A DNA stretch of 37,338 bases, taken from the IMG/VR virus record IMGVR_UViG_3300023179_000269, positions 1 to 37,338 of that record; one strand, 5' to 3'. How positions within the stretch are numbered: position 1 is the first letter of the stretch; each line of letters starts with the position of its first letter. This stretch comes from a virus. This document shows positions 338 through 33,856 of the stretch, one piece after another. A model generated the notes under the pieces. That model searched no databases and was not told where the DNA came from. It saw only the letters and a program-made list of their open reading frames with translations. The position numbers were made by a program, and so were the translations under genes.

Positions 338-439
338 TCACCCCCGGAGACGAACACCCAATATTTGACCCCGGAAAGCGGAACACTCTTGACACGTTCC
401 GGGGTATCTTTTCCGCCATTCTCGACTCTCACCACTCAT
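338..439 (-). CDS. possible 33-aa protein with CxxC
   Basis: A 33-residue frame begins with an ATG that overlaps the 3' end of the upstream gene by 11 bases. It ends in a TGA that overlaps a potential GTG start of the HNH gene (GTGA). It is basic and carries a single CQEC pair. I do not recognise it. The overlaps on both sides are the pattern of a coupled operon gene. There is no clear Shine-Dalgarno sequence, and an inverted repeat runs through it, so this stretch may instead be untranslated leader for the HNH gene. Confidence 0.3.
   Translation of the reverse strand: MSGESREWRKRYPGTCQECSAFRGQILGVRLRG
368..405. repeat. nested inverted repeat upstream of HNH gene
   Basis: ACCCCGGAA at 368-376 is mirrored by TTCCGGGGT at 397-405. 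Inside this lies GGAAC (380-384) against GTTCC (396-400). The arms are perfect and about 20 bases apart, so a long hairpin or a dyad binding site is possible. It lies just ahead of the HNH gene on the leftward transcript. No T-run follows on the minus strand, so a minus-strand terminator is not supported. Confidence 0.5.
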
Positions 440-905
440 CACAAGCCGCATCGAGCGCACCCGATCGCGCCGCCCACAGCCGCGCCAGGTCGCGCACCAC
501 GCGGCCATAGCGCATGCGAAATGCGTCCGACGTCTCACCCGATCGGCGCCCGCCCATCGCTTCCCACACGCGTTCCCAACGAAACCCGCCCGGCTCGTGC
601 CGCGTCTTCATCGCCAGCACCAGCGCTACCAGTGGACGGTTCGCCACCGCCACGCTTTCCATCAGGCAGCCCGGCTCCACGAACACCGCATCGCGCAAGG
701 CAATCTCACGCCGCCCGAGCCGCAGCCGCGGCTGTGCCTCGCTATCGGCATAGTCCATCACCTTGTCCCGCACGATCTCCGGCCAGCCAGACCTTGACCC
801 GCTGGCGAGAAACCCGCGCTCCGGATCAGGCGAGCACCGCAGCACCCGCCACGCTTCCATCAGCGTCTCTTCCATCGCTTCGAATTCGGCATCCTTCCTT
901 GCCAT
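429..905 (-). CDS. DUF6362-like phage protein
   Basis: 158 residues. The start is the ATG at 905, placed by an AGAGGAG ribosome site 6 bases upstream. The frame is open further upstream, but that part is the repeat-filled intergenic block. Features include an N-terminal EAWRVLRCSPDPERGFL segment, a GWPEIVRD motif, and a C-terminal half FRWERVWEAMGGRRSGETSDAFRMRYGR that reads like a helix-turn-helix. The combination recalls the DUF6362 family found near phage terminase and HNH genes. The family assignment is from memory and the function is unknown. Its position as the last early gene before the packaging genes would suit a late-transcription or packaging regulator, which is inference. One of the TGGAGCA repeats covers its start codon. 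Confidence 0.7.
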   Translation of the reverse strand: MARKDAEFEAMEETLMEAWRVLRCSPDPERGFLASGSRSGWPEIVRDKVMDYADSEAQPRLRLGRREIALRDAVFVEPGCLMESVAVANRPLVALVLAMKTRHEPGGFRWERVWEAMGGRRSGETSDAFRMRYGRVVRDLARLWAARSGALDAACDEW

Positions 906-1205
906 GCTCCACTCCTCTGTTTGGAAATAGGCGAATGGAGCAAAGTGCTCCATTTTCTGAAACCCTGAAAACCCATTATATCCAATAGGATAACTTACCT
1001 TCTCAACCCTTGGAAAAGAGGAATGGAGCAAATGGAGAACCAATCTGGCCCCAGTCCTTTGGCAAAAGCGTTTTGCATTGCTTGTGGCCGGTAGCCGGAA
1101 ATCCTGCTCCAAATGCTCCACATCGCTCCAAACCCGCAGAAATCTGCGGTTTTCCATGCTCCATTTTCGCAGAACCGGCATGATCGCGCCGCGCTCCATG
1201 GAGCA
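905..1205. other. dyad/iteron cluster, candidate replication origin
   Basis: This gene-free block holds eight exact copies of TGGAGCA or its complement TGCTCCA: 905-911, 936-942, 946-952, 1024-1030, 1105-1111, 1114-1120, 1157-1163 and 1199-1205. Three one-mismatch copies lie at 1033-1039, 1124-1130 and 1192-1198. Two pairs form perfect dyads: 9-bp arms around AAG at 934-954, and a gapless 12-bp palindrome at 1193-1204. Further palindromes lie at 1062-1076 (GCAAAA-GCG-TTTTGC) and 1134-1149 (CCGCAGA-AA-TCTGCGG). An A/T-rich stretch sits at about 966-1000. It directly follows the primase-helicase gene. Iterons plus an A/T-rich segment beside a replication gene is how many phage and plasmid origins look. 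A multi-operator control region is the alternative. Confidence 0.6.
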
Positions 1206-1230: not shown

Positions 1231-3153
1231 TCACTTGAAGCCGGGGTCTTCCCACCCGCCCAGCGGATCGGCATTTTCACCCCCGATTTCAGGCCCCGGC
1301 GCATCCTCTTCCGGCGGCGGCCAGCGTCCGCTCTGGATCGCTTCCACGCTCGCGCCGGGCAGCGGGCGCACCTTCACCCACCATTCGCCGTTCGAGGTCT
1401 TCCGCTCGAACCCCTTGTCATGCATCGCATTGTTGAAGCCGCGGTTCTGCCACCCTTCGCCCTCGCTGGCCTTGGCCCACGCCTGATAGAGCGCATAGAG
1501 CTCGGACACGCGCACGCGCACAACCTTGGCATCGCCGCCCACCTCGCAGCACTGCGAAAGAAACCGGCCCAGCTCGTCACTCTTGTCGCGATAGGCCTGC
1601 GTCGCCTTGCGCACCTCGGCAGGCTCGATCAGCCCATGCTGGCGCCAGTCGCACAGCCCTTCCAGCAAGCGGTTGAGGATGCCGCTGGCTTCCTTGTCGC
1701 GCATGCGATCCTTCAGCTTGGCATCGATCTCATCCTTCGGGATCGTCACGGCCCAGGGCACTAGCTGCATGCGCCGCCAGATGCCTTCGGAGGTATCCTT
1801 GATTTTCGGCTTGTTGTTGCCGCTGATCGTCATCTTGAAGCTGGGCAGGAAGGTAAAGAACCCCTTGTTCAGATGCCGCGCATCCACCGGATCCTCGCCG
1901 GTCACCTGCTTGACTAACCCCTCGTTCAGTGTGCTGCCCTGCGCCGGTTCGGAAACCCGCAGGAAACGCACGCCAGGCAGCCGCGCGATATCGGGCGTGG
2001 CCTGATCGCCGCGCTTGTTCGCGCCCGTCTGCAGAAAGCTCTCGATGGGAATCGAACCGGCATAGTCCCCGGCGATATGCGCCACGGTTTCCACCCATGT
2101 GCCCTTGCCGTTTCGCCCGCTGCCATAGAAGAACGCCAGCTTCTGCGCGCTGGTGTTGCCCGTCAGCGATAGGCCGCCCCACTGGTGGATGAACCGCCGC
2201 ATCGTCGCATCGGGCTGCACCCGCTCGATAAAGGCATCATATTCTGGGCACTTGGCGCTGGGCCGATACTCGACCGCGCAAATCTTCGTCATCAAGTCCG
2301 CGCGGTCATGCTTGTCGAGCCGCAGCTTCCACCCCGTGGTATGCCATTCGCTCGCCCCGGCCTCGATCTCGGCCTGCGTGCGCTTCTCGGATCGCCGCAC
2401 AAGCCGCAGCGTGCCGTTCTGCACATTGATCGCCATCCGGTCCCGGTCAAAATCATCCGGCTGCACCGCGATCATCGGGAACGACTTCGCCAGCGCTGCC
2501 ACCATGGCAATCTTGCCGCCGCCCTCGCTGGTCCGCGCCCACGCGGCCAGCACATCGCTCTGCAGCTTGCGCTTGGTCAGATCGATCAGCCGGTCCGCCC
2601 GCTCGAGGCCATTGAGCCACGCCGCCACATCATCGCGCCGCTCGGCATTGATCCCGCGCAGATAGGCTGCATGGCCCTGATCCTCTTTCGCTGATCGCAG
2701 CGATTCCCACGCCATCATTGCCCGATCGCCCGAAAGCGCCTCCGGCTCCATGCCGCCCGTCGCCGCCAGCAGCTTCGCTTCCCAGCCAATGGCGCGCACC
2801 GTGGCATAAACGCTCTGCATCACCCGCGCCGGCGCCCGGTCCTTTTCCTCGCTCAGCAGATGCCAGCGCCGCCCATCCCACGCAAACCAGCCAATCTCGG
2901 CGCAAAAGCGAAAGTTGTGCCCATGCCGCATCAGCCACCGCTCGGCATTGCCCAGATCAGTCAGCGGCAGGCGCAGGCAGGCCCAATCACGGTCTGGATC
3001 GGCACCTGGCCTGATCCTCCCGTCCTGCCCACCCTGATCACCCCCCGCACCCCCACCAGATGCAGGCGCGGAAGGTCCACCCGGAGCAGAACCCGAAATT
3101 CCCGCTGGGGGCGGGGGCCCATCGCCCGCCAGTAAGTTGCGTCGCCGTGTCAT
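1231..3153 (-). CDS. D5/P4-type phage primase-helicase
   Basis: 640 residues. After a Gly/Pro-rich N-terminus (about 1-50) comes a D5_N-like region beginning near RWLMRHGHNFRFC. An SF3-type helicase follows, with Walker A GSGRNGKGT (344-352), an acidic segment RFLRVSEPAQG (397-406) and the sensor-like GNNKP (445-449), then IWRRMQLVPW. The family (P4-type phage/plasmid primase, D5 helicase) unwinds DNA at replication initiation. No PrimPol domain is visible at the N-terminus, so primer synthesis may come from another protein. The ATG overlaps the preceding stop (ATGA). The candidate origin follows its stop. Confidence in the helicase is high; a priming activity is not shown. Confidence 0.92.
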   Translation of the reverse strand: MTRRRNLLAGDGPPPPAGISGSAPGGPSAPASGGGAGGDQGGQDGRIRPGADPDRDWACLRLPLTDLGNAERWLMRHGHNFRFCAEIGWFAWDGRRWHLLSEEKDRAPARVMQSVYATVRAIGWEAKLLAATGGMEPEALSGDRAMMAWESLRSAKEDQGHAAYLRGINAERRDDVAAWLNGLERADRLIDLTKRKLQSDVLAAWARTSEGGGKIAMVAALAKSFPMIAVQPDDFDRDRMAINVQNGTLRLVRRSEKRTQAEIEAGASEWHTTGWKLRLDKHDRADLMTKICAVEYRPSAKCPEYDAFIERVQPDATMRRFIHQWGGLSLTGNTSAQKLAFFYGSGRNGKGTWVETVAHIAGDYAGSIPIESFLQTGANKRGDQATPDIARLPGVRFLRVSEPAQGSTLNEGLVKQVTGEDPVDARHLNKGFFTFLPSFKMTISGNNKPKIKDTSEGIWRRMQLVPWAVTIPKDEIDAKLKDRMRDKEASGILNRLLEGLCDWRQHGLIEPAEVRKATQAYRDKSDELGRFLSQCCEVGGDAKVVRVRVSELYALYQAWAKASEGEGWQNRGFNNAMHDKGFERKTSNGEWWVKVRPLPGASVEAIQSGRWPPPEEDAPGPEIGGENADPLGGWEDPGFK

Positions 3154-3359
3154 GCCTGCTGTGCTTTCGCCTCAGCCCCATGATAAAGCTTCGCCTCAGA
3201 TACGGGGTCTGCATCAAACTCACCGCACCAATCGCTGATATCTCGCTTTGGGAAAGCATGCGGCACCGAACGAATGCGACACTGCCCGAAATCCAAGAGC
3301 GACTCCTCGCCGCCTGCCTTCAGAAAAAACCGGCAAAAGCCGCACATGGAATTGCTCAC
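3150..3359 (-). CDS. small Cys-rich (zinc-knuckle-like) protein
   Basis: 69 residues from a GTG that overlaps the upstream stop (GTGA). Its own TGA overlaps the primase-helicase ATG. Cysteines fall as CGFC near the start, GQCR in the middle and DWCGEF, a spacing seen in small phage proteins that probably bind zinc or an iron-sulphur cluster. The specific role is unknown. Position suggests a replication accessory. An internal ATG at codon 5 is an alternative start. Confidence 0.75.
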   Translation of the reverse strand: MSNSMCGFCRFFLKAGGEESLLDFGQCRIRSVPHAFPKRDISDWCGEFDADPVSEAKLYHGAEAKAQQA

Positions 3360-4000
3360 GCCGCCATCCTCTCTTCATCAGCAGGGCGCACCGCCACCTT
3401 CGGCAGCCCGTCCCATGCCAGCGCGCGGCCCAGCACATCGGCGGCGCGCGCATCCTCGCAGTGCAGCGTCACGCCTGGGCCGAGGCCGCGCAGCTGCCCC
3501 AGCACCGATGGCGCCCAGTCCAGCACGCAGATGCCCGCCCCGCCCGCCACCAGCCACGCCAGTGGAGTCCCGAACACCGGCAGCACATCGTCGATGCCGA
3601 GCACGCAGCGCAGCAGCGCCCGGTGCCCCAGCACCAACCCCTCGCCGCGCAGCAGCGCCCATTCATCCGGCCGGGCAGACTGGACCGCGCAGACGTCGAT
3701 CACCTCGCCCGCCTCGCGCACTGCGAGCAGTAGCGCCGGGGCGCCGCCATCGTCGAAGTCGAACAGCCCGCCTTTGCCGATCGTCACCCGCGCCCGCGCC
3801 AGATCGCCCCGCACCAGCAGCGCATTGATCACCCCGCGCGGTGCGCCCATTTCCTCAAGCGCGACGACTGCCGCAAATGGCATCCGCACCGCCAGCCCCG
3901 CCAGCCAATCCCCCAGCGCGCTCGCCACCAGCCCCGCACTCTCGCGGCGCACCCCGTGGAAAGCTTCCAGCCCATCCGGAAAGGCGCGCCACGCGGTCAT
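3356..4000 (-). CDS. unknown protein of replication operon
   Basis: 214 residues, starting at an ATG that overlaps the GapR-like gene's stop and ending in a GTGA overlap with the next gene. The protein is Ala/Leu/Gly-rich and appears soluble, with a likely alpha/beta core: [33 protein letters not shown] and [17 protein letters not shown] do not recognise a family. The helicase two genes downstream lacks a visible priming domain, so this is a candidate partner, but no catalytic motif can be named with confidence. Similar proteins sit beside primase-helicases in sphingomonad prophages, as far as I recall. Confidence 0.75.
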
Positions 4001-4368
4001 GCCGATGCCTTGGCCTTCTTGCGCGCCGCCGCATTGATCGGCACCACCGGCCCGCCGTTCACCTGCATGGAAATCGCCTCCGGCATGGCATCAAGCCGCG
4101 CCAGCACGTCGCCCATGGGCGTGCCTTCCAGCCCTTCCATGCCCAGCGCCGCCTTGTAGGTGTCGAGCACGGCCTCATATTCGCGCCGGTCATCCGGCTT
4201 CATCTTTCGCAACTTCACGATCTGGCGCATGATCTTCGGATCATATCCGGTCGATTTCGCCTCGGCGTAGACGTCCCTGATATCGTCGCCGATACCCTTT
4301 TTCTCTTCCTCGAGGCTTTCGATCCGCTCGATCAGCAGCCGCAGCCGGTAATCACTCGCTTCCGCCAT
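3997..4368 (-). CDS. GapR/DUF2312 family DNA-binding protein
   Basis: 123 residues. The ATG at 4368 is set by an AAGGA site 7 bases upstream. The N-terminal 75 residues match the family signature: [17 protein letters not shown], then [15 protein letters not shown] and [19 protein letters not shown]. GapR (DUF2312/UPF0335) proteins are alphaproteobacterial, form coiled-coil dimers or tetramers, and in Caulobacter bind overtwisted DNA ahead of moving polymerases to assist topoisomerases. A phage copy inside the replication operon suggests a role in phage replication, or competition with host GapR. The C-terminal ~45 residues ([18 protein letters not shown] onward) look like an extension beyond the usual domain. 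Confidence 0.92.
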
Positions 4369-4540
4369 CGCCTTGTCCTTCCACCAGTCCAAACCAGTCG
4401 GCCACGATGGCCGCCTCGTGATCAATTTCGATGGGATGCAGCACCGCCTGCCGCAGCAGCATCGCGCTCGCGCGCCGCGTGCCCCGCCGCCCGCGCTTCT
4501 CGGCAGCCCTGCGCCGCCGCTGCTGGTCCTTGAAGCTCAC
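4352..4540 (-). CDS. small basic protein, unknown
   Basis: 62 residues from a GTG overlapping the upstream stop (GTGA), with its 3' end overlapping the GapR-like start by 17 bases. The first half is very basic ([17 protein letters not shown]), and the second half holds a short amphipathic stretch around [15 protein letters not shown]. The basic part could bind nucleic acid. I do not recognise a family. Coupling to its neighbours is the main support. Confidence 0.6.
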
Positions 4541-7137: not shown

Positions 7138-7167
7138 GTTCCGATTATTGGAACGCCAAGTCAAGCC
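7138..7167 (-). promoter_or_regulatory. leftward early promoter with 17-bp operator
   Basis: On the minus strand TTGACT (7164-7159) is a good -35 box. Four bases later comes the imperfect dyad GTTCCAATAATCGGAAC (7154-7138), with GTTCC/GGAAC arms and an A/T-rich centre. The gene start is only 8 bases further on. The same 30-base module, with two differences, lies ahead of the rightward operon. The -10 box is unclear. A repressor on the dyad would cover the promoter spacer and -10 region. Confidence 0.8.
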
Positions 7168-8113: not shown

Positions 8114-8146
8114 GGCTTGACTTTACGTTCCAATAATCGGAACAAT
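8114..8146 (+). promoter_or_regulatory. rightward early promoter with 17-bp operator
   Basis: TTGACT at 8117-8122 is the -35 box. The dyad GTTCCAATAATCGGAAC lies at 8127-8143, and AACAAT at 8141-8146 is a possible -10 with an 18-base spacer. The stretch 8114-8143 matches the leftward promoter module at 28 of 30 bases. The first gene starts at 8174 with a strong ribosome site. The remaining ~195 bases of this gap (7979-8173) hold only this module and the variant dyad. Confidence 0.8.
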
Positions 8147-9891: not shown

Positions 9892-11634
9892 ATGAACGCA
9901 ACCGTGAACGCCGGCCAGTTTCAGCGCGTGGCCAAGGGCCCGCAAGTCGGCGCGCCGCCCAGCCTCGAACAAGTGCCGCTGGATCGGCTGCAGGTGGATC
10001 CAGCTTATCAGCGCGCCACCGATGGCACCCAGTCGCGCCGCATCATCAACGGGATGATCAAGCAGTGGGATTGGTCGCTCTGTCAGCCTCTCGCCGTCTC
10101 GCGGCGGTTGGATGGCGGGCTTTATGTGCTTGATGGCCAGCACCGTCTGGAAGGCGCCCGGGCGCGCGGCGATATCCACTATCTGCCCTGCGTTATCAAC
10201 GCCGGGCTCGATCTGGCGGGCGAGGCACGCACCTTTGTCAAGATCAACACCGAACGGCAGAAGCTCAGCGATAGCGATGTGTTTCTTGGCATGCTTGCTG
10301 CCGGTGATGCCGATGCCGTGGCCGTCCAGGCGATCATGGAAGGCACGGGCTGGTCGCTCGCGCGCACCAAGAACAGCGCCATCTGGAAGCCCGGTCAACT
10401 GATCTGCGGCGCGGTGCTGGTGCGCATGTTGAAAATGCGCGGCGAAAATGCCGTGCGCTTTGCGCTGGCCACGCTGCGCGCGGCCTATCCTGAAACACCT
10501 GTCACTGTCACCGCCACCCTGCTTGCTGCTTTGGGCGAGATTTTCGATGGCGATCAGATGGCCGGGCTTTCCACCGCCGCGCTGGCCGATGCGATCGGCG
10601 CGGTCGAACCGCGCAAATGGCGCATCCGTGCCGCCAAACGCCGCGAACGCTTCACCGGCGAAAGCGAGCAGACCGCGCTGGCGCAATGCATGATCGCCGC
10701 CGCCAAGGGGCAGGGCGAAGCAGCCTATGAACGCCCGGCGGCGCCGACACCCAGCACAGGGCACCCAGCCATTGCTGCGCGCACTGGCGCCGCCCCGGCT
10801 CTGGCAGTCAAGACAACGCGCATCACCTTGCCTCCAAAAAGCGCCTTCGGCACCGAAGGCAAAGGCTGGTGCGATCAGTGGCTGGTGCGACCAGTGCGAG
10901 CAGCTCCGCACCCGCGAAGCCGCCGCCGCTTGCATCAGCCGCTTCTGCAAGCTGCGGGGCCTTGCGTGAGCGCGGCCCGCATCCTCATCGCCTGCGAGTT
11001 TTCCGGCACCGTGCGCCGCGCGTTCACCGCGGCGGGCTTCGATGCCTGGTCCTGCGATTTGCTGCCCGCCGAGGATGGCAGCAACCACCACATCACCGGC
11101 GACGTCCGCGACGTGCTGGGCGAGGGCTGGGATCTGCTGATCGTGGCGCACCCGCCGTGCACCCGGCTCTGCAACAGCGGCGTGCGCTGGCTGACAACGC
11201 CGCCGCCGGGCCGCACGCACGCCGATCTGTGGCGCGAGCTCGATGAAGGCGCGGCGCTGTTCTCCACGCTCTGGAATGCGCCGGTGCCGCGCGTGGCAGT
11301 CGAGAACCCGGTGATGCACAGCCACGCCAAGCGGCGCATCACTGGCTATCAGCCCGCCGCGCAGAGCGTGCAGCCGTGGCAGTATGGCGATTGGGAAACC
11401 AAACGCACCTGCCTCTGGCTGCGCGGCCTGCCGTCGCTGGTGCCCACGTTTGGCACGATCGATGCCGCACGCGCCGCCCTCAACCAAACCGGCCAGCCCA
11501 TCGCCCGCGTTCACCGCATGCCGCCGGGTGTGGGCCGAGCGAAAGAACGCAGCCGCTTCTTCCCCGGCATCGCCGCCGCCATGGCCGCGCAATGGGGCCC
11601 GCTGCTCGCCGCACAAGAAGCCGCCGCCGCATGA
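9892..11634 (+). CDS. ParB-like (DUF6551) domain fused in frame to cytosine-methyltransferase-like domain
   Basis: 580 residues as read. Residues about 20-260 are a ParB/DUF6551-type domain: VPLDRLQVDPAYQRATDG, then the DGQHRLEGARARG motif typical of ParB N-terminal folds, then VKINTERQKLSDSDVF. Residues 260-358 are a linker. From 359 on the protein is a C5-cytosine-methyltransferase-like fold. The linker contains a 16-bp tandem duplication (10864-10895). Without it, the ParB frame would run into a zinc ribbon and stop at 10969, leaving the methyltransferase as a separate gene. The fusion may therefore be recent, or a sequencing error. The ParB-like domain is common in phages beside DNA methylases. 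Confidence 0.75.
   Translation: MNATVNAGQFQRVAKGPQVGAPPSLEQVPLDRLQVDPAYQRATDGTQSRRIINGMIKQWDWSLCQPLAVSRRLDGGLYVLDGQHRLEGARARGDIHYLPCVINAGLDLAGEARTFVKINTERQKLSDSDVFLGMLAAGDADAVAVQAIMEGTGWSLARTKNSAIWKPGQLICGAVLVRMLKMRGENAVRFALATLRAAYPETPVTVTATLLAALGEIFDGDQMAGLSTAALADAIGAVEPRKWRIRAAKRRERFTGESEQTALAQCMIAAAKGQGEAAYERPAAPTPSTGHPAIAARTGAAPALAVKTTRITLPPKSAFGTEGKGWCDQWLVRPVRAAPHPRSRRRLHQPLLQAAGPCVSAARILIACEFSGTVRRAFTAAGFDAWSCDLLPAEDGSNHHITGDVRDVLGEGWDLLIVAHPPCTRLCNSGVRWLTTPPPGRTHADLWRELDEGAALFSTLWNAPVPRVAVENPVMHSHAKRRITGYQPAAQSVQPWQYGDWETKRTCLWLRGLPSLVPTFGTIDAARAALNQTGQPIARVHRMPPGVGRAKERSRFFPGIAAAMAAQWGPLLAAQEAAAA
10864..10895. repeat. 16-bp tandem duplication causing a frame change
   Basis: GGCTGGTGCGATCAGT at 10864-10879 is followed at once by GGCTGGTGCGACCAGT at 10880-10895 (one mismatch). 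Sixteen is not a multiple of three, so the second copy shifts the frame. The upstream frame reads GWCDQW and runs on to the methyltransferase. The frame opened by the second copy reads GWCDQCEQLRTREAAAAC and ends at 10969. Confidence 0.88.
10880..10969 (+). pseudogene. displaced zinc-ribbon segment
   Basis: In the frame starting at 10880 the DNA encodes GWCDQCEQLRTREAAAACIS followed by RFCKLRGLA and a TGA that overlaps the methyltransferase GTG. CxxC plus two later Cys is a complete zinc ribbon of a kind often seen in small phage proteins. It is cut off from the ParB-like frame by the 16-bp duplication. It could only be made now by a separate upstream start in its own frame (ATG at 10727, with an implausible basic N-terminus) or by frameshifting. 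Confidence 0.5.
10966..11634 (+). CDS. DNA cytosine methyltransferase-like protein (internal start)
   Basis: 222 residues if started at the GTG that overlaps the zinc-ribbon stop (GTGA). The SAM-binding motif I is ILIACEFSGTVRRAF (6-20). The acidic end of a second strand is FDAWSCDLL, and the catalytic-loop-like motif is HPPCTRLCNSG with PPC at 63-65. The fold and PPC motif match C5-cytosine methyltransferase relatives carried by phages. The usual target-recognition region is short. The product may methylate phage DNA to avoid host restriction. It is uncertain whether it is translated separately or only as part of the 580-residue fusion. Confidence 0.65.
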   Translation: MSAARILIACEFSGTVRRAFTAAGFDAWSCDLLPAEDGSNHHITGDVRDVLGEGWDLLIVAHPPCTRLCNSGVRWLTTPPPGRTHADLWRELDEGAALFSTLWNAPVPRVAVENPVMHSHAKRRITGYQPAAQSVQPWQYGDWETKRTCLWLRGLPSLVPTFGTIDAARAALNQTGQPIARVHRMPPGVGRAKERSRFFPGIAAAMAAQWGPLLAAQEAAAA

Positions 11635-32818: not shown

Positions 32819-33856
32819 TCAGGCAGGAGTGTGGAGCATCAAGGCCGCGGTACGGCGCTTGCGCTCGATTTCGTTGGTAATCCGGGCAGTAGCCTCGTTG
32901 GCTGCCGCTGCACCCTGCAACAGGTTTTCGGGAATGATCCACAGCTTGCAGACAGCTTCGGGTTCGATATCGCCAGCCACCACTTCGCAGGCGCGCGCAC
33001 CATCATAGAACGCGCAGTTCGCACACTTGATACCTTCACCGGCAAAGGGATTCGCGGCCATATAGTGCGCGCCATTGGCGCCGCTGGTCTGATCGAACTG
33101 GCCAAGCTCGCTGGCCACTTCCTCGACCGCCTCATAGAGTTGTGCCTGCCGCGCGCTCATGTCGGCGGTGACGTCCGCGCGCGGCTCGACCACCAGAGCA
33201 GCAACTGCCGGCGCATTGTCATAGGCCGAAAGATCCCACTGCACCGCAGCGCTGGGCGCGGCATCTGCAGCCACTTCATCGGCGAGGCCAAGCTCAATCG
33301 CTTCGGCACCGGTGAGCCATGTTTCCGCTGCCATCATCGCCGCAAAATCGGCAGGCTTGATGCCGCGCCGTTCGGCGGCAGCGGAATAGGTCTGCACAAT
33401 GGTGCCGTCGATCTTTTCGAGCAGCGAGGCTGTTGCGGCAAAGTCGTCCGCATTGCCCATAGCAATCGACCAGGCCTTGTGGATCATGATCATGCCGCCT
33501 TGCGACACTACCACCTTGTTTGAAACCGAAGTGATAAACGACGCCGCGCTGGCGGCGTATCCGTCGACATAGGCGGTAACGTTGCCCGGATAGTCGCGGA
33601 TGGCCTGCGCCATGGCGCGAGCGGCGAACACATCGCCGCCGGGCGAATTGATGCGGATCGCGACGTCGCCGCTCATGCCGCGCAGGGTCTGCACGAAAGT
33701 CTCGGCATCCACGCCGCCCCACCATTCGGCATCGGCCTTGCTCGATACGATCACGTCATAGAGATAGATCGTGCTGGCCTCTGCCGTCGCTTCGGCGCGG
33801 AACTGGCCCTTCTTTGCGTTTCGGGCAAAGAGGTTAAGCAGCTTGTTGCGGTGCAT
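32819..33856 (-). CDS. ClpP-like head maturation protease with C-terminal Cys motif
   Basis: 345 residues from the ATG at 33856. The ClpP/S49-like core has IRINSPGGDVFAARAMAQAI, the Ser nucleophile region TAYVDGYAASAASFI, then GGMIMIHKAW with the catalytic His. It cleaves the capsid scaffold domain. Beyond about 230 there is a separate C-terminal part with CANCAFYDGARACEVV and AVCKLWIIPENL, four cysteines in a pattern seen in small metal-binding domains. The start overlaps the portal gene by 23 bases. Confidence 0.9.
   Translation of the reverse strand: MHRNKLLNLFARNAKKGQFRAEATAEASTIYLYDVIVSSKADAEWWGGVDAETFVQTLRGMSGDVAIRINSPGGDVFAARAMAQAIRDYPGNVTAYVDGYAASAASFITSVSNKVVVSQGGMIMIHKAWSIAMGNADDFAATASLLEKIDGTIVQTYSAAAERRGIKPADFAAMMAAETWLTGAEAIELGLADEVAADAAPSAAVQWDLSAYDNAPAVAALVVEPRADVTADMSARQAQLYEAVEEVASELGQFDQTSGANGAHYMAANPFAGEGIKCANCAFYDGARACEVVAGDIEPEAVCKLWIIPENLLQGAAAANEATARITNEIERKRRTAALMLHTPA

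Follow-up and report, generated by a model that had tools for sequence, protein, structure and literature searches.

Directly behind the primase-helicase gene of an IMG/VR virus lies a dense array of the heptamer TGGAGCA and its complement TGCTCCA. The window analysed here is the whole of that virus record (IMGVR_UViG_3300023179_000269; 37,338 bases), and word counts cover its full length. We propose that positions 905-1230 are very probably the replication origin of a siphophage, of the type served by the P4 alpha protein and by Rep of the Staphylococcus aureus pathogenicity islands (SaPIs), and that this origin is bound by the primase-helicase itself. The proposal draws on sequence comparison and on analogy with characterized initiators. 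The array keeps its place and layout in related phages, most of which use a different word, and the word co-varies with residues in the wing of a predicted winged-helix domain at the C-terminus of the primase-helicase. A first-pass annotation, made from the letters of this DNA alone, had named the block as a candidate iteron-type origin. That suggestion is supported: relatives keep the array in the same place and in the same layout, its word co-varies with the wing, and initiators of like organization are known.

The array and its setting

Because the window contains terminase, portal, major head, tape-measure, tail and endolysin genes, we assign the virus to the siphophages; by its gene content it is a phage with head and tail genes of its own. 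Its primase-helicase matches PF08706 (E 1.7e-17) and phrog_1156 (E 9.9e-123) and, among PDB profiles, the primase 7ola and C962R of African swine fever virus (ASFV). The stop codon of this gene (1231) and the next start codon (905) are separated by a gap of 325 nucleotides, which the array occupies. The final iteron, 905-911, overlaps the start codon of the gene at 429-905.

Eight of the nine TGGAGCA/TGCTCCA heptamers in the window fall within 905-1205 (Table 1). The ninth is at 32832, so the motif is not equally common elsewhere in the genome. Could the cluster have arisen by chance, or as low-complexity repeats without function? A dinucleotide shuffle predicts 5.28 copies per window, or about 0.04 per 301 bases, and across 300 first-order Markov simulations the maximum in any 301-nucleotide stretch was 2 copies, compared with the 8 observed. 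The array is also conserved across phages that use different words. This conservation already refutes the idea, and the probability that it holds is vanishingly small.

The array contains a perfect dyad at 934-954 (AATGGAGCA-AAG-TGCTCCATT) and a second at 1193-1204, the 12-bp palindrome GCTCCATGGAGC. The 100 nucleotides with the lowest GC content in the window, 918-1017, also lie here (39% GC, compared with 64.5% overall), and the AT-rich positions 955-1023 are flanked by two sets of iterons, 1024-1205 and 905-954. In the first iteron set of the core, the spacings are 10 and 9 nucleotides and the orientation is away from the primase gene. The first-pass annotation had thus described the block correctly: the eight exact copies in about 300 bases, their chance expectation of about 0.04, the three near copies, the two perfect dyads, the A/T-rich segment and the place after the primase-helicase gene in a gap of the operon were all recovered. 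A further palindrome, CCGCAGAAATCTGCGG, lies at 1134-1149, just ahead of the first iteron set.

Table 1. Positions of the iteron array, its parts and the adjoining genes in the window.
Feature	Position	Strand	Remarks
Iteron array, proposed replication origin	905..1205		8 exact and 3 one-mismatch copies
Exact copies of the 7-mer	905-911(-), 936-942(+), 946-952(-), 1024-1030(+), 1105-1111(-), 1114-1120(-), 1157-1163(-), 1199-1205(+)		
One-mismatch copies of the 7-mer (three)	1033-1039, 1124-1130, 1192-1198		
Proximal iteron pair and 12-bp palindrome	1192..1205		Adjoins primase stop
First iteron set of core	1105..1130	-	Tandem 1124-1130 (TGGAGCG), 1114-1120, 1105-1111
Spacer between inverted iteron doublets	1040..1104		65 nt; contains palindrome GCAAAAGCGTTTTGC at 1062-1076
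Second (inverted) iteron doublet of core	1024..1039	+	1024-1030 and 1033-1039, spacing 9
A/T-rich stretch, proposed melting region	918..1023		Adjoins inverted doublet; lowest GC of window
Distal iteron set	905..954		Dyad 934-954 and iteron 905-911
Primase-helicase (D5_N and SF3-type helicase), proposed initiator	1231..3153	-	640 aa
C-terminal winged-helix domain	1363..1509	-	About residues 549-597; AlphaFold pLDDT ~97
Wing residues N588-G589-E590	1384..1392	-	Co-vary with iteron positions 3-5
Helix 570-579 of winged helix	1417..1446	-	Possibly tracks iteron positions 6-7
Next operon gene, phrog_6836	429..905	-	Function not assigned

Arrays and dialects among relatives

Relatives of the primase-helicase were drawn from viral contigs, genomes and named phages. 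Iteron words were called from the candidates G[GC][AG]NNN within three changes of GGAAGG, a set that could call only A or G at position 4. Because a loose candidate set had given at least 4 copies for 26 of 116 loci in one or another control window placed inside the gene or upstream of it, we then relied on the enrichment of words in each phage. The refined caller used DNA only and replaced a first caller that had been misled by GCGCGC runs. By this procedure a clear repeat word follows the primase-helicase in 95 of 109 loci. According to the first-pass calls, a phage's own repeat has a mean copy number of about 7 per 420 nucleotides behind the primase gene, compared with about 0.7 elsewhere.

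What is conserved is the place and layout of the array, not the word TGGAGCA, which is common to the window, L032 and L009. Most other relatives use different words: TGGAAGG is the commonest, and TGGAGAG, TGGAGGM, TGGGAGG, TGCAAGG and CGGAAGG also occur. Unbiased 7-mer counts bore out arrays of these words (TGGAGGM apart) and of TGGAGCA; in distant named phages they gave words such as AGGGACG (RcapNL) and GGGAGGC (AmM-1), and array words show near-zero background. By these comparisons the heptamer is one dialect of a repeat family and not a single fixed motif.

The conserved order is two iterons, a spacer of about 65 nucleotides, two inverted iterons, an AT-rich stretch and further iterons. 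The inverted-doublet core is found in 58 of 77 non-redundant loci, with a median spacer of 69 nucleotides (mostly 61-75), and the tandem iterons within a doublet are mostly 8-9 nucleotides apart. Additional single iterons and dyads lie on both sides of the core. Beyond the inverted doublet, the mean AT content of the relatives climbs to about 0.63-0.65 and then returns to about 0.4. In three loci (L017, L044 and L047) an extra gene splits the primase from the array. Here a TGGAAGG array, the predicted dialect, lies 0.8-1.1 kb beyond, ahead of the usual downstream gene.

Inverted repeats around a spacer also suggest a different kind of origin, one that acts as a long hairpin with the inverted doublets as its stem. 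This has been proposed for plasmid pRN1, whose stem-loop has a 21-nucleotide stem and a 58-nucleotide loop (PMC4234260). The geometry here is similar, with arms of 15-16 nucleotides and a spacer of about 65. Arm spacings match in 52 of 54 loci, so that unequal spacing gives no ground for excluding a stem, and the central spacers fold somewhat better than shuffled sequences, with a mean z of -2.07. The arms, however, are 96% complementary within the iterons, against 68% in the spacer that separates them and 44% in the flanks, a pattern that protein sites would produce but a selected stem would not. Moreover, many iterons lie outside the stem, and the repeat sequence follows the wing of a predicted duplex-binding domain, as described below. 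We do not favour the hairpin as the conserved element, since arm complementarity is mainly confined to the iterons, and we consider it very unlikely that the origin works in this way.

Some relatives show further features. The spacer between the doublets is often alternating and GC-rich (GTGCGCGCGC...) and folds better than shuffled sequence in about half of the loci. In several, a TTTCTGCG-like element stands ahead of the doublet and could be a second protein site. The doublets of L012 and L037 are asymmetric (TGGAACC, then TGGAAGG) and may be intermediates in a change of dialect. Two phages recorded under Microcystis, Mae-JY04 and Mae-JY28 (L222, L223), have a primase 56% identical to that of the window and a winged helix identical to that of L008 over the part compared, and Mae-JY28 has a TGGAAGG array behind its primase. 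Either the family extends to cyanobacterial hosts or the recorded host is wrong.

The winged helix and the repeat word

What reads the repeats? Tables of repeat against protein gave the first pointer to the C-terminal winged helix of the primase-helicase. AlphaFold predicts a winged helix there with confidence; it includes helix 570-579 and a wing hairpin that has S587-N588-G589 at its tip. In VIA-align, the best structural matches of the predicted domain are the DNA-binding domains of RFX5 and RFX1 (Z 9.2 and 9.0; root-mean-square deviation (rmsd) 2.0-2.1 over 69-70 residues). The P4 origin-binding domain 1KA8 aligns at Z 8.7 (80 residues, rmsd 3.1). A Z of 8-9 is by itself insufficient to prove a relationship. 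These matches come from VIA-align; Foldseek alone gave no match below E 0.001 for the predicted domain, and a sequence search of solved structures with the C-terminal domain gave only weak matches to ASFV C962R. The RFX proteins are eukaryotic transcription factors, and we claim a shared fold and possibly a shared reading mode but no common descent. RFX1 reads the major groove of DNA through its wing, not its helix (PMC4333399), a mode that fits the wing being the part that co-varies here.

We compared residue identity with base identity over 530 alignment columns of 77 non-redundant proteins, with overall protein similarity removed. For iteron position 4, column 589 is the best of the 530 (partial r 0.90, with 0.68 for the runner-up). 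All 61 phages with A at this position have Gly at 589, and none of the 16 with G does. Traits were also simulated on a tree from which the winged-helix domain had been left out: 1 in 1000 equalled 589 when any column was allowed, and none did so at a winged-helix column. Among phages with A4, residue 590 is Met, Ile or Val in 49 of 49 with A at position 5 and in 0 of 12 with G. Under simulation, chance yields a perfect separation of this kind at some column in 5.8% of runs and at a winged-helix column in 0.6%. Position 588 is occupied by His in the three TGCAAGG phages, by Arg in the one GCGAGG phage and by Asn, Asp or Ser in the others. Residues 588, 589 and 590 thus appear to align with iteron positions 3, 4 and 5; the case for 589 is strong, that for 590 good and that for 588 thin. 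Helix 570-579 may track positions 6-7. L250 and L253, in which the helix is altered, have altered positions 6-7 (GGGATA and GGGATG) and keep Val589 and G4.

Close relatives can switch protein and repeat together. L111 has Val589 and CGGGAGG, whereas L116 has Gly589 and CGGAAGG; likewise, L235 (Val, GGGAGG) stands beside L249 and L284 (Gly, GGAAGG). Column 589 came from scanning, hence the importance of a blind set of new phages. The blind scan covered 47 further distinct primases, 43 with a clear word, and 40 of these 43 obey the 589 rule; 37 of the 43 combine a residue other than Gly with G, so mainly one side of the rule was tested. The seven distant array phages (L148, L149, L150, RcapNL, Pthi1, Pan4 and AmM-1) all have G4 and no Gly589, with low scores and with the repeat register set by eye.

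Several observations count against this picture. The three new phages that break the 589 rule (L281-L283) form one lineage and have the wing N-S-G instead of S-N-G. The associations at positions 6 and 7 are not separated from ancestry, and the repeats are mixed; in the L015-L028 clade, too, they are mixed (TGGAGGA, GGC, GCA, GCC) and the dialect is poorly defined. Counts of co-changes on the tree do not single out 589, which accounts for 3 of 4 changes, with another column slightly better; we set such counting aside as too coarse for picking single columns. Lastly, in the flanking DNA examined, four distant homologues (L144, L145, L147 and L225) have no array near the gene, and L034, L036 and L194 have no clear array.

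The co-variation at the wing makes the primase-helicase itself the likely reader of the repeats. A second candidate was the product of the next gene, a homologue of which follows the array in 64 of 77 loci. Its best co-variation with position 4 is 0.44 (next 0.22), compared with 0.90 for the primase wing, and it was rejected for this weakness. The same comparison bears on the possibility that the iterons serve not replication but the expression of gene 429-905 and its operon, as an operator bound by a regulator or by the primase-helicase. The overlap of the last iteron with the start codon would suit an operator, as would the array staying ahead of the downstream gene where another gene is inserted after the primase. 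But the downstream family is absent from 13 of the 77 loci, which keep their arrays, and an array of at least eight sites that also has an inverted-doublet core and an AT-rich stretch goes beyond an ordinary operator. We regard an operator in place of an origin as unlikely; autoregulation may exist alongside origin function.

Could the array instead serve packaging, as a pac or cos region to which terminase binds? At the window's left end there is an HNH gene, no more than about 0.9 kb away, and in RcapNL the array has the primase gene on one side and the cohesive end on the other. However, the place of the array is set by the primase gene across loci, and its dialect follows the primase-helicase wing (the proteins compared for co-variation were the primase-helicase and the downstream protein). 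A packaging site is highly improbable.

Family profile searches recognized no primase domain in front of the window helicase. The 214-amino-acid protein encoded upstream (3356-4000) has no family match and is not detectably the missing domain. Among homologues, L100 carries a DnaG-type primase front (CHC2/DnaG-N/Toprim) and L107 carries PrimPol; the same helicase and winged helix are joined to different primases in these two.

An origin model and its known counterparts

How would such an origin fire? In our proposal, the primase-helicase would bind the TGGAGCA iterons through its C-terminal winged helix, with wing residues 588-590 reading the middle of the repeat and the neighbouring helix probably reading its end. 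The two inverted doublets, 65 nucleotides apart, would act together with the flanking iterons to collect helicase rings and set their orientation. Next, the neighbouring A/T-rich stretch would melt and be unwound by the superfamily 3 (SF3) helicase, and priming would follow. For array binding, ring assembly, melting and firing, the model borrows from SaPI Rep, Cch2, the phage-inducible chromosomal islands (PICIs) and P4 alpha.

P4 alpha is a primase-helicase initiator whose C-terminal winged helix binds origin repeats (PMC4234260). The likeness is that of an initiator with a C-terminal winged helix, and the fold predicted here aligns with 1KA8. The two differ in that P4 alpha fuses primase and helicase, whereas the window protein has no recognized primase in front, and in that P4 is a satellite and the window element a full siphophage. 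The P4 repeat word is taken to differ.

Parallels in layout come from staphylococcal and related islands. In SaPI Rep and Cch2, the C-terminal domain recognizes iterons directly downstream of its own gene (PMC7581432). In PICIs the origin comes directly 3' of rep and has an AT-rich region between two sets of iterons; clones carrying rep and ori replicate (PMC6092414). Here, too, the proposed origin is 3' of the initiator gene, with iteron sets around an AT-rich region; the differences are the setting, in phages of Alphaproteobacteria and related contigs, and the inverted-doublet core with its nearly fixed spacer of about 65 nucleotides. For the Cch2 helicase of the staphylococcal cassette chromosome mec (SCCmec), the isolated C-terminal domain is reported to bind AAGTG direct repeats in the gap after its own gene (PMC7581432). 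The position of the iterons behind a helicase gene is shared with the window; SCCmec has three iterons only and a different word, and is not known to have a dialect series. A further counterpart is the Sfi21-type ori of Streptococcus thermophilus phages, which adjoins a primase gene and which, in extra copies, protects cells from phages.

Origins placed downstream of such genes are already known in SaPIs, PICIs, SCCmec and plasmid pRN1, so the type as such is not new. What looks new is that it occurs in these phages, together with the inverted-doublet layout and the wing 'code': literature searches, which covered few subscription journals, found no description of the array, the inverted-doublet core or a residue-level code in these phages.

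Other genes of the window deserve mention. The operon of the primase-helicase also has, upstream of that gene, one for a GapR-like DNA-binding protein (3997-4425, minus strand; PF10073, E 2.1e-33). The DNA that cellular GapR binds is the overtwisted DNA near replication forks, and the phage protein may serve the same origin. Farther away, TTCCGATTATTGGAA (7139-7153) and, about 1 kb on, its exact reverse complement TTCCAATAATCGGAA (8128-8142) surround small genes near 7.2-8.2 kb; they look like repressor operators of a lysogeny switch. The gene at 9892-11634 (plus strand) encodes a 580-amino-acid protein with a ParB-like N-terminal part (phrog_1033) and a DNA methyltransferase-like C-terminal part (phrog_757).

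For alphaproteobacterial phages of a large group that has been little studied, the model would supply an origin together with its initiator and a predicted recognition code. This code involves one to three residues of a small domain and the matching bases of the repeat. A fuller version, to which we give even odds, treats these phages as a natural library of such a code, built on an SF3 helicase with an RFX-like winged helix. It holds that iteron positions 3, 4 and 5 are each read by one wing residue (588, 589 and 590, respectively), that arrays of 8-13 sites have repeatedly been rewritten in step with the protein, and that the origins of related prophages are mutually orthogonal. How does an array of a dozen sites change its word in step with its reader? 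A possible driver is the avoidance of cross-talk between co-resident prophages or satellites. If orthogonal, such pairs of initiator and origin could also be put to use in these bacteria as compatible replicons.
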